A DNA stretch of 64,000 nt from Spongiibacter sp. IMCC21906 (GTDB taxonomy: Bacteria; Pseudomonadota; Gammaproteobacteria; Pseudomonadales; Spongiibacteraceae): assembly GCF_001010805.1 (NCBI RefSeq), contig NZ_CP011477.1:1069001-1133000 (forward strand), given 5' to 3'. Both the position numbers and the translations under genes were made by a program. The stretch's first letter is position 1. Every line of letters begins with the position of its first letter. Shown piece after piece: positions 50,697 to 53,121 of the stretch. Under the pieces are notes generated by a model. It worked only from the letters and a program-made list of their open reading frames with translations. It did not search any database and was not told the DNA's origin.

Positions 50697-51008
50697 CTAA
50701 GGCATAGTGCCTTGTTGTTGGGTGTCTGGCAGGCTGGTGCTGTGTTTGCTTTTAGGAATCCCGCGTCTGTCCAAACGTATTTTACCAGAGGTGTAGCTGC
50801 TGCCAGCCCGGGGCCTTGGTTCTTCGCGGACGGGCGTTTTTTTCGTTTTTTCGGGTTTAATGGCTTGCAGCGTTTTATATTCTCCACCGTCATCCTTCTT
50901 AGAAGACTCTGAAGCAGCTGTATTGGCTTTATCACCTGCCAGCGCGAAGGAGCTCAACAAGAGAGCGGCGAAACCACAATAGTGTATCCATTTTTTATTC
51001 ATAGGCAT
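50697..51008 (-). CDS. Small exported protein of unknown function
   Basis: 103 residues. A signal peptide (WIHYCGFAALLLSSFALA-G) is followed by a Lys/Glu/Arg/Pro-rich low-complexity mature part (YKTLQAIKPEKTKKTPVREEPRPRAG). No family recognised. It lies 51 bp downstream of the anti-sigma gene on the same strand, so it may be the last gene of the ECF sigma operon and be involved in the same stress response. Confidence 0.6.
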   Translation of the reverse strand: MPMNKKWIHYCGFAALLLSSFALAGDKANTAASESSKKDDGGEYKTLQAIKPEKTKKTPVREEPRPRAGSSYTSGKIRLDRRGIPKSKHSTSLPDTQQQGTMP

Positions 51009-51059: not shown

Positions 51060-51308
51060 TCACGAGTCGTCTATCTTTTTTTCTTCCTGCAGGCGCTTGA
51101 GAATTGTTTGCGCGGCGTTATCGTCCCGGTTCCACAGCCGCTTGGCAATTGCAGCACCAGTGAGTCGGCTGTGATCCAGATGCCGTTTAAAGCGGCGGCA
51201 GTGACGGCAAATCAATAAGTGCGCTTTGATTTCTATCGCTTTCCAGCCATGAAATTGACCATCGAGGTGGTCGCTGCTCAGCTCGGTAAATTGTCGACAG
51301 TTTAACAT
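51060..51308 (-). CDS. Zinc-finger anti-sigma factor-like protein
   Basis: 82 residues. It has the zinc-binding anti-sigma pattern: an early Cys (NCRQF) and H-x3-C-x2-C in AHLLICRHC, then a helical tail. No membrane segment is visible, so it resembles a soluble ZAS-type anti-sigma factor that may sense thiol or metal stress. It overlaps the ECF sigma gene by 7 bp, the standard arrangement. Confidence 0.85.
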   Translation of the reverse strand: MLNCRQFTELSSDHLDGQFHGWKAIEIKAHLLICRHCRRFKRHLDHSRLTGAAIAKRLWNRDDNAAQTILKRLQEEKKIDDS

Positions 51309-51916
51309 TCCCCCGTCTCCTGATAATGATCAACCACTTGCATAAGACGCAGCCTTGCGCGATGCAATAACACTCGCACATTGTTGTCGCTCAAGCCCAA
51401 AACCTCGCTGATGTCGACTAAAGCATGCTGTTCAACATCGCGTAACAGAAACACCGCTTTTTGTTTTTCTGGTAGTACGCTCAATGTGTGCTCAATGCAT
51501 TTTTGCAATTCGCTTTCCTGCAACATCAGCTCCGGCGTGGCGATTTCCCAGCGGGTGGGAGGATTGCTCCAGTGCCCCTGTTGGTCAAAGTGTTGGCTGT
51601 CTCCACCGTGACCGAGCTCTTCTATATCCGCAACATTCATGTGGCGTTTTTCTCGACGCAGGCGCGATTTAGCCTCGTTGCTGACAATTTGAATAATCCA
51701 GGTGCTAAGGCTGGAGCGCCCTTCAAATTTAGCAATGGCGCGATACACCGATGACCAGGCATCTTGCACCACGTCTTCTGCAAAAATCTCTCCGACAATC
51801 GAGCGAGCGATAATCAGCAAACGTGGCTGATGTTGCGCAATCAGTGATTGAAATGCGGCATTGTCACCGCTTTTCAATCGCTCGATGAGGGCTTCTTCGT
51901 CGGTGTTTGTCGACAC
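51302..51916 (-). CDS. ECF-family RNA polymerase sigma factor
   Basis: 204 residues from the GTG at 51916, supported by AAGGA 6 bp upstream; the open frame continues upstream but without family similarity. Region 2 (FQSLIAQHQPRLLIIARSIVGEIFAEDVVQDAWSSVYR; STWIIQIVSNEAKSRLRREKR) and region 4 (LSVLPEKQKAVFLLRDVEQHALVDISEVLGLSDNNVRVLLHRARLRL) are clear. A matching ECF-type promoter (TGTAAC-N16-CGTC) lies before the DoxX gene upstream in the same operon and another before the KCGE-repeat peptide gene, so autoregulation is likely. Confidence 0.93.
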   Translation of the reverse strand: MSTNTDEEALIERLKSGDNAAFQSLIAQHQPRLLIIARSIVGEIFAEDVVQDAWSSVYRAIAKFEGRSSLSTWIIQIVSNEAKSRLRREKRHMNVADIEELGHGGDSQHFDQQGHWSNPPTRWEIATPELMLQESELQKCIEHTLSVLPEKQKAVFLLRDVEQHALVDISEVLGLSDNNVRVLLHRARLRLMQVVDHYQETGEC

Positions 51917-52005: not shown

Positions 52006-52608
52006 TTATTGCTTGCAAGGCTTCCACCGTTTGGCTATCCAGTAATCCAGGCTGACATAGCGACCACCGCCGGTTTTTACTAATGCCAGCAGCATTAGTA
52101 AATAGGTGACGGCAAACTCAATACCGTTATTTAATATCACCAGTTTGCCGCTGCTGGTTAGCCACTGGTAGTTGCCGTGGGTTTTGAGGATGTCTCTTGC
52201 GGCTTGCAGTTTTTCGGGAGCTGCCATTACCCGCTCATTGGCAAAGGGTGCGCTGGCGTCGGCAATCGCCTGCCAGCCATTGGGTAAATGTACGGTAATA
52301 GCGGCGACTAGCATGGTGATAGCCAGTGGAATGGATATCCAGCGGGTTGCTAAACCCAGTAGCAATAATGCCGCGCCGCCAACTTCGGCCGCCGTGGCAA
52401 GGCTGGCCATTAATAGCGGAAAAGGTAGCCCTAGGCCCCAATCTGGGTTGCCAAACCAGTTTACCGTTGACGAAAAATTCATGAGTTTATTGTTACCCGC
52501 CATCCATAGTGTCGGCACTAAATAAAGGCGCAGCCCCAGCGCGGGTAGGCCATCTAGATGTGATAGGCGACACAGTACAGAGCGATAAATCTGGCAGAGT
52601 CGATCCAT
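52006..52608 (-). CDS. DoxX family membrane protein (HvfX-like)
   Basis: 200 residues from the ATG at 52608, supported by AAGGA 8 bp upstream. DoxX-type four-helix membrane protein: LRLYLVPTLWMAGNNKLMNFSSTVNWFGNPDWGLGLPFP, then TAAEVGGAALLLLGLATRW, AITMLVAAITVHLPNGW and a final VTYLLMLLALV. The lengthened loop between helices 3 and 4 with FANERV is typical of the HvfX/BufD-like members found with bufferin-type peptides. First gene of the operon with the ECF sigma and anti-sigma; divergent from the peptide gene. Confidence 0.85.
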   Translation of the reverse strand: MDRLCQIYRSVLCRLSHLDGLPALGLRLYLVPTLWMAGNNKLMNFSSTVNWFGNPDWGLGLPFPLLMASLATAAEVGGAALLLLGLATRWISIPLAITMLVAAITVHLPNGWQAIADASAPFANERVMAAPEKLQAARDILKTHGNYQWLTSSGKLVILNNGIEFAVTYLLMLLALVKTGGGRYVSLDYWIAKRWKPCKQ

Positions 52609-52644
52609 TGTCGAGTTCCTTGCGTATGAAGTTTGCTTCTGTAT

Positions 52645-52670
52645 GACGAGGAGCAAGCCGCCTTGTTACA
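52645..52670 (-). promoter_or_regulatory. ECF-type promoter of doxX-sigma operon
   Basis: Read on the minus strand: TGTAAC at 52665-52670, 16-bp spacer, CGTC at 52645-52648, with the DoxX start about 37 bp further. It mirrors the plus-strand element at 52714-52739. Confidence 0.7.
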
Positions 52671-52713
52671 AATTAGTGTATCGAGGCTGGTGAAAATATT
52701 TTTGTGCTGGCGT

Positions 52714-52739
52714 TGTAACATTGAGTAGGCTAAAACATC
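52714..52739 (+). promoter_or_regulatory. ECF-type promoter of KCGE-repeat peptide gene
   Basis: TGTAAC at 52714-52719, 16-bp spacer, CATC at 52736-52739, 77 bp before the peptide start. Same -35 and spacer length as the divergent element, with one change in the -10. Confidence 0.65.
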
Positions 52740-52816
52740 CTATGAGCAGCGCAGGTATTCTGCGCAGTGATATTCTTTTTAGCTATGCACTACCACAATC
52801 AAAGGAATTTTTTATC

Positions 52817-53077
52817 ATGAATAAATCTATCAGTATTCTGGGCGCGGCAATGGTCGCTTCTTCACTTGCCTCAGTTAGCATGGCTGACAGCGCTGCAAAT
52901 CCATTCACTGCAAAATCCTTGAACAGCGGCTATCAAGTCACTAACTTTGGTGATGGCGAAGCGAAATGTGGCGAGTCTAAGTGCGGCGAAGCGAAATGTG
53001 GTGAAGAGAAGAAAGGCGCTGAGGCTAAATGTGGCGAGTCCAAGTGTGGCGAAGCTAAATGCGGCGAAGAAAAGTAA
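52817..53077 (+). CDS. HvfA/bufferin-like exported KCGE-repeat peptide
   Basis: 86 residues from the ATG at 52817, supported by AAGGA upstream; the longer frame to 52721 would begin inside the promoter region. A signal peptide ends at SMA-D (about residue 23). The mature part begins with an HvfA-like NPFTAKSLNSGYQV segment and then six KCGE units in two blocks of three (EAKCGESKCGEAKCGE), giving six cysteines. In related systems Cys in EGKCG-type motifs is modified by an MNIO (DUF692) enzyme with a partner, to give a metal-binding peptide (family knowledge). Neither partner gene is seen in this window. A perfect terminator follows. Confidence 0.85.
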   Translation: MNKSISILGAAMVASSLASVSMADSAANPFTAKSLNSGYQVTNFGDGEAKCGESKCGEAKCGEEKKGAEAKCGESKCGEAKCGEEK

Positions 53078-53093
53078 GTAACAAGTGATCCGC

Positions 53094-53121
53094 AACCTCC
53101 GGGTAACCCGGAGGTTTGTTT
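53094..53121 (+). terminator. Rho-independent terminator of KCGE-repeat peptide gene
   Basis: AACCTCCGGG pairs with CCCGGAGGTT around a short loop (TAA), followed by a T-rich tail TTTGTTT, 17 bp after the stop. Confidence 0.85.

Follow-up and report, generated by a model that had tools for sequence, protein, structure and literature searches.

A HvfABCX copper-peptide system very probably divided between two chromosomal sites and joined by one ECF sigma regulon in Spongiibacter sp. IMCC21906

How might a cysteine-rich peptide of the HvfA type be matured when the enzymes that would modify it are not encoded beside it? This question is raised by a window of 64,000 nucleotides (the whole stretch of Spongiibacter sp. 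IMCC21906 DNA that was analysed), in which a small KCG-repeat peptide gene faces an operon for a DoxX-family protein, an ECF sigma factor and an anti-sigma factor. In EGKCG peptides, cysteines are oxidised to heterocycles and copper is bound (PMC12538549, PMC13097082), the heterocycle being a thiooxazole in PMC13097082. A 2025 survey considers that precursors without an adjacent MNIO gene are perhaps modified from another locus, or not at all; it also considers that several precursors might share a single modifying MNIO pair, and it contains genomes with several precursors and one pair (PMC12452194). The reading best supported here, on the basis of gene content and shared promoter elements, is that the peptide very probably belongs to an HvfABCX system for copper peptides of the captophorin/oxazolin type, with genes at two chromosomal sites that are joined by one ECF sigma regulon.

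The open reading frames bear out the original prediction of an exported 86-residue peptide with six KCGE units and an HvfA-like segment (NPFTAKSLNSGYQV, NPF..LNSGY), encoded divergently from doxX-sigma-anti-sigma (Table 1). Its N-terminus resembles a signal peptide by eye, and the peptide thus combines the Sec-like signal and repeated K-C-G (six KCG) of such precursors; its units are EAKCG/ESKCG, whereas the characterised peptides carry EGKCG repeats. The peptide passes the NCBIfam model for the HvfA-family KCGExKCG domain (NF050137; 32.8 bits, cut-off 19.5) but does not reach the HvfA equivalog (NF050188; 23.6 bits, cut-off 95), and it lacks the DUF2282 domain of Buf1 bufferins, the Pfam scan returning only a GETHR match below cut-off. 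The gene is here called hvfA2, for an HvfA divergent from hvfX-sigma-anti-sigma, while hvfA1 denotes an HvfA beside hvfBC. No further HvfA was found in the source genome with the NCBIfam domain and an alignment of seven HvfA sequences. A terminator-like hairpin follows hvfA2, suggesting that it forms a single-gene unit; five terminator-like sites occur in the region against a shuffle mean of 2.8, and the hvfA2 hairpin is a consensus match only.

Table 1. Features of the two hvf sites (positions refer to the window unless a contig is given)
Feature	Position	Strand	Basis
Zinc-finger (ZAS-type) anti-sigma	51060..51308	-	PF13490 (zf-HC2) and NF052368 (antisigmaE) over cut-off
ECF sigma factor	51302..51916	-	PF04542 and PF08281 over cut-off; TIGR02937 93.5 bits (cut-off 42.9)
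hvfX (DoxX family)	52006..52608	-	NF050144 234.5 bits (cut-off 80); PF07681 70.6 bits (cut-off 23.6)
ECF-type promoter element of hvfX-sigma-anti-sigma	52645..52670	-	TGTAAC-N16-CGTC
ECF-type promoter element of hvfA2	52714..52739	+	TGTAAC-N16-CATC
hvfA2 (hvfA-type precursor)	52817..53077	+	ATG at 52817, 86 aa, stop ends 53077
Terminator-like hairpin 3' of hvfA2	53094..53116	+	10-pair stem, 7 G-C
hvfB + hvfC	contig C1 ~2,078,418-2,080,044		~956 kb from window peptide

In the divergent operon, the assignment to the DoxX family made in the original prediction was right, but the identity of the protein as HvfX had been missed. The sigma gene, whose GTG start was picked by eye, and the anti-sigma gene both fall outside positions 52006-53121, to which that prediction had been attached. 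The anti-sigma factor carries C-x25-H-x3-C-x2-C from residue 4, in agreement with the ZAS motif C/H-x23-26-H-x3-C-x2-C (PMC7907618). At 51 bp past the anti-sigma gene lies a 103-residue open reading frame (50697-51008, reverse strand) with a signal-like start and no cysteine after the mature start, which matched nothing in Pfam or NCBIfam up to E 0.1 and has no counterpart among the open reading frames of the other hvf loci scanned. A second HvfX-family gene (contig C1 ~3353611-3354162; L131 4558-5241, reverse strand; 211 bits, cut-off 80) has a counterpart over cut-off in 16 of the 18 genomes of the genus; it sits between moeB/hesA-like and helicase-like genes (named by eye), away from other hvf genes, and was set aside.

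The claim that no modifying enzyme is present holds within the window, where no MNIO or DUF2063 gene occurs because the single matches of the genome are located elsewhere, but fails for the genome as a whole. A search of the complete genome (3.48 Mb, two contigs) for DUF692 and DUF2063 genes, which the original prediction had proposed, yielded one match each, in adjacent genes (hvfB and hvfC), and ruled out the reading that there is no enzyme. Both proteins reach equivalog level, HvfB with NF003818 (433.2 bits, cut-off 360) and the RRE partner HvfC with NF050145 (279.8 bits, cut-off 142), while HvfB stays below the cut-off of the bufferin MNIO model (272 bits, cut-off 310). HvfB aligns to PDB 3bww (E 1.9e-77) through LLDVNNIYVN and DTHG, which, judged from the motifs only, probably hold the equivalents of N175, D242 and H244, residues that were mutated in PMC13419390. 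The pair is preceded by an hrpA-like gene and followed by a lipoprotein-like gene (both named by eye); the gap before hvfB measures 118 bp and holds no precursor, and no precursor remnant was seen by eye upstream of hvfB in the sequences inspected. The precursor and its putative maturase are ~956 kb apart rather than adjacent, and the only HvfA found in the genome is that of the window. The alternative of an enzyme encoded elsewhere thus gained support from this pair and its promoter element of the same type (see below), while a reduced or unmodified system is not supported, since the genome holds HvfA, HvfB, HvfC and HvfX, with HvfX adjoining the peptide.

The elements of the form TGTAAC-N16-C(G/A)TC that had been predicted on both strands were recovered, lying back to back between the operons at 77 bases from the start codon of hvfA2 and 36 bases from that of hvfX. 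They are the only matches to TGTAAC-N15/17-CRTC in the window (100 shuffles averaged 0.59, with at least two in 12 of 100). Genome-wide, TGTAAC-N16-CRTC matched 13 times and the reversed control also 13 times; since the pattern alone is thus weak evidence, it was dropped as an argument by itself and conservation was used instead. A further element, TGTAAC-N16-AGTC, lies 134 bp upstream of hvfB. The form TGTAACA-N15-VRTCT has four sites in the source genome (reversed control 0), located before hvfB, before msrP, before a DUF1223 gene and before no clear gene. These four do not include the two elements of the window, which deviate from this form at the last base; the T following TC is present in 45 of 50 aligned sites and absent from both window elements.

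Conservation was assessed in 21 genomes, comprising 18 of the genus, which we infer to be Zhongshania (the source genome and 17 congeners), and three from a sister genus. TGTAAC-N16/17-NNTC occurred upstream at 51 of 51 positions (hvfA1BC or hvfBC, 21/21; hvfX with adjacent sigma, 16/16; hvfA2, 14/14), against 2 of 628 control stretches of the same loci. The count for hvfX was obtained with a scan extending 150 bp into the open reading frame and is 14/16 otherwise, some called frames starting too far upstream. The -10 words vary, and in the stricter form N16-[ACG][AG]TC the counts are 20/21 for hvf(A)BC, 16/16 for hvfX and 4/14 for hvfA2 (control 0/628; shuffled upstream regions average 0.02-0.035 matches per group), the remaining 10 of the 14 hvfA2 elements fitting the looser NNTC form only. 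Both msrP and the DUF1223 gene were first spotted from pattern matches and then tested on genus homologues: the element was found upstream of msrP in 14 of 15 (the exception, in G004, being a locus that is partly N) and upstream of DUF1223 in 11 of 11 genes found, one of which (in G017) looks broken. The link of msrP to the putative hvf regulon is thus drawn from the promoter element, and the DUF1223 gene is a candidate member. In the source genome, the DUF1223 element lies at contig C1 1686837-1686863 (L244, L314), and the gene carries a CSSCP motif. An element also precedes a glutathione-dependent oxidoreductase gene in G012 and G013, the family being named from G012 only. In G010, which is without hvfX, a sigma gene lies elsewhere and has its own element; in G007, an element precedes hvfA and none was found before sigma. 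In the sister genus, hvfABC has the element in three of three genomes, and the two hvfX loci fetched have neither sigma gene nor element. This conservation strengthens the case for divergent ECF promoters, and the loci look like one regulon.

A comparison of the neighbourhoods of homologous peptides, also proposed originally, showed that 10 of the 18 genomes contain both hvfA1 and hvfA2 (gene maps and HvfA searches), four contain hvfA2 only (the source genome G000, G012, G013 and G014), four contain hvfA1 only (G001, G004, G007 and G010; in G001 and G004 no hvfA2 open reading frame lies opposite hvfX) and none contains neither. An MNIO gene is present in 18 of 18. In G013, where the HvfA is of the divergent type only, there are two, the second (contig C11 ~105757-106572, L132) being divergent in sequence with a weakly HvfX-like gene nearby. 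Of the 20 relatives fetched, 19 (all but G007) have the hrpA-like gene upstream of hvf(A)B, as does the source genome, and the loss of hvfA1 therefore happened in place. On the HvfBC tree two such losses are required, and none of 200 bootstrap trees (0%) needs only one; the well-supported branches are compatible with a single loss. In G007, the genes for sigma, anti-sigma, A, B, C and X stand in one row, and HvfBC is divergent and on a long branch, so that this cluster was perhaps acquired. Complementary loss of the precursors (four and four of 18, none lacking both) would arise by chance about once in three by hand reckoning, and was rejected as evidence by itself.

Outside the genus, 80 named HvfX loci (the best 80 of 102) were compared. 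The commonest order, in 33 loci that all belong to Acinetobacter, is anti-sigma-sigma-C-B-A divergent from X. Among the same best 80 of 102, 23 loci outside Zhongshania have no hvfB in the fetched flank, and an MNIO gene was found elsewhere in 22 of the 22 genomes of these that could be searched. In 20 of these split genomes the element could be evaluated (two had no usable sequence before hvfA): nine have it before hvfX as well as before the hvf genes at the other site, and 11 at neither place, a contrast that is inflated by relatedness, chiefly among Cellvibrio. In two of the 11, the scoring also included MNIO genes that lack an hvfA, and the form of the element used had 14 chance matches in 1844 control stretches. 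All seven split genomes with a sigma gene beside hvfX belong to the nine. Seven loci, from five Cellvibrio, one gammaproteobacterium (together L185, L189, L191, L201, L204 and L211) and Simiduia (L181), show hvfX-sigma-anti-sigma apart from hvfABC with an element of the same type at both sites.

The best reading of these results is that HvfA2 would be matured in trans by the remote HvfBC under one ECF sigma factor. The arrangement would then be a variant on the HvfABCX/sigma-E system already known, and not a case of a reduced or unmodified peptide. The window would supply the precursor HvfA, HvfX, sigma and the ZAS anti-sigma, and the second site HvfB and HvfC. By analogy with the meningococcal and Haemophilus homologues, metal or oxidative envelope stress would lead the anti-sigma factor to release sigma, which, to judge from the shared elements, would switch on its own operon, hvfA, hvfBC, msrP and the DUF1223 gene. 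HvfBC would then act in trans, before export, turning the cysteines in the six KCG units into thiooxazoles, and the window peptide probably binds copper. The ancestor of the genus probably had two precursors and one HvfBC, and the source lineage would have lost the precursor beside hvfB while retaining its promoter element.

Several alternative explanations were considered. If HvfA2 were unmodified, it would be a plain Cys-rich periplasmic buffer for metals or oxidants, and HvfBC would serve nothing or an unseen precursor. Its lack of linkage to HvfBC and its EAKCG/ESKCG core units would agree with this, and PMC12452194 leaves the option open; yet four genomes retain full-length hvfBC and its promoter element although the sole HvfA found is remote, the six KCG sites are retained, and the HvfA sequences of the two types, 31 of 31 taken together, have NPFxAxx(L/M)xxGY after the signal region, so this explanation is improbable. 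It is highly unlikely that HvfBC acts on some other, undetected small Cys peptide, with the shared promoter reflecting general stress control only: hundreds of diverse small precursor candidates do lie beside MNIO genes (PMC12452194), but the gap between the hrpA-like gene and hvfB is too short for a typical precursor, the gene after hvfC is lipoprotein-like, and HvfB is assigned by its own model and not by that of bufferin MNIOs. An assembly artefact as the source of the split is scarcely credible, since a single 3.47-Mb contig carries both loci, 19 of 20 relatives share the hrpA-hvf neighbourhood and three other congeners lack the same precursor; no point in its favour was found.

The adjacent sigma factor is inferred to read the element, and the idea that TGTAAC-N16-xxTC is read by another regulator would account for the two split genomes that have it at both sites with no sigma gene beside hvfX. 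In addition, among the best 80 of 102 HvfX loci the exact TGTAAC element is present in 17 of 52 with sigma and 4 of 28 without (p 0.11), and with NRTCT added in 15 of 52 against 3 of 28 (p 0.09); the lack of significance in the exact-element test traces to the Acinetobacter-type loci, 33 of 34 of which have TGTAAT in place of TGTAAC on the hvfA strand. The form TGTAAY-N16/17-NRTCT, which was chosen post hoc, separates the same loci (48 of 52 with sigma, 3 of 28 without) and occurs in 3 of 1844 control stretches. Together with the element before the sigma operon in all 16 genus loci and its resemblance to the Caulobacter sigma-F element (GTAACC-N16-CGAA; PMC3511200), this makes another regulator unlikely.

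Beyond maturation in trans, it can be proposed, as a rather doubtful generalisation, that the Hvf pathway consists of two separable modules joined by the shared promoter only, in which one maturase serves precursors from several loci and outlasts the deletion of its own precursor, and HvfX belongs to stress sensing and not to Cys oxidation. The sensing module would comprise HvfX, sigma and anti-sigma (and the precursor HvfA in Zhongshania), the maturase module would hold HvfBC and, in most cases, a precursor, and HvfX would perhaps be a membrane sensor or a post-export partner. The genomes described here make the question of modification in trans raised in PMC12452194 testable, because the single precursor and the single maturase pair that were detected lie far apart with matching elements, and the relatives with two precursors or with the operon precursor only offer natural controls. 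Searches for gene clusters that demand adjacency would call the window peptide an orphan. The putative regulon joins copper peptides to methionine repair in the periplasm (MsrP) as well as to a DUF1223 protein. Among the matches listed, no description of the split arrangement was found in the open-licence literature.

The individual parts have parallels in the portions of the literature drawn on here, where sigma/anti-sigma systems control hvf- or bufferin-type genes together with methionine sulfoxide reductases or YedY (PMC3240639, PMC7907618, PMC3511200). In Neisseria meningitidis, sigma-E/MseR governs the operon NMB2140-NMB2145 and msrA/msrB (PMC3240639, PMC7907618), and the present system likewise has an ECF sigma factor, a ZAS anti-sigma factor, a DoxX cluster and a methionine sulfoxide reductase in one small putative regulon; however, the meningococcal genes form one six-gene operon, while here ~956 kb separate precursor and maturase, and MsrP is the reductase. 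In Haemophilus influenzae, RpoE2/HrsE is associated with an hvf (DoxX) operon and msrAB (PMC7907618, PMC13419390); the sigma gene there is distant from the maturase genes it controls, as it is here from those it would control, and both systems have HvfABCX parts, but in Haemophilus hvfA, B, C and X stand together, whereas here A and X accompany sigma and B and C stand alone. The Caulobacter sigma-F regulon unites a similar element with DUF692/DUF2063 operons, DoxX and the MsrP-type YedY (PMC3511200), and differs in having DUF2282 proteins as precursors and DUF1109 as negative regulator, and in that the precursor gene remains in every operon. The Microbulbifer mmrABC system also pairs a KCG-type precursor (EGKCG) with MNIO and DUF2063 proteins that modify it to the copper chelator bulbicupramide (PMC12538549), but as a compact ABC cluster for which the portion drawn on describes no split such as that seen here. 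Counterparts in gene arrangement are the stand-alone bufferin/oxazolin precursors of PMC12452194, whose genes are likewise not beside an MNIO gene; their modification is left open in the survey, whereas in the present genus the shared elements and the loss in place argue for modification in trans.
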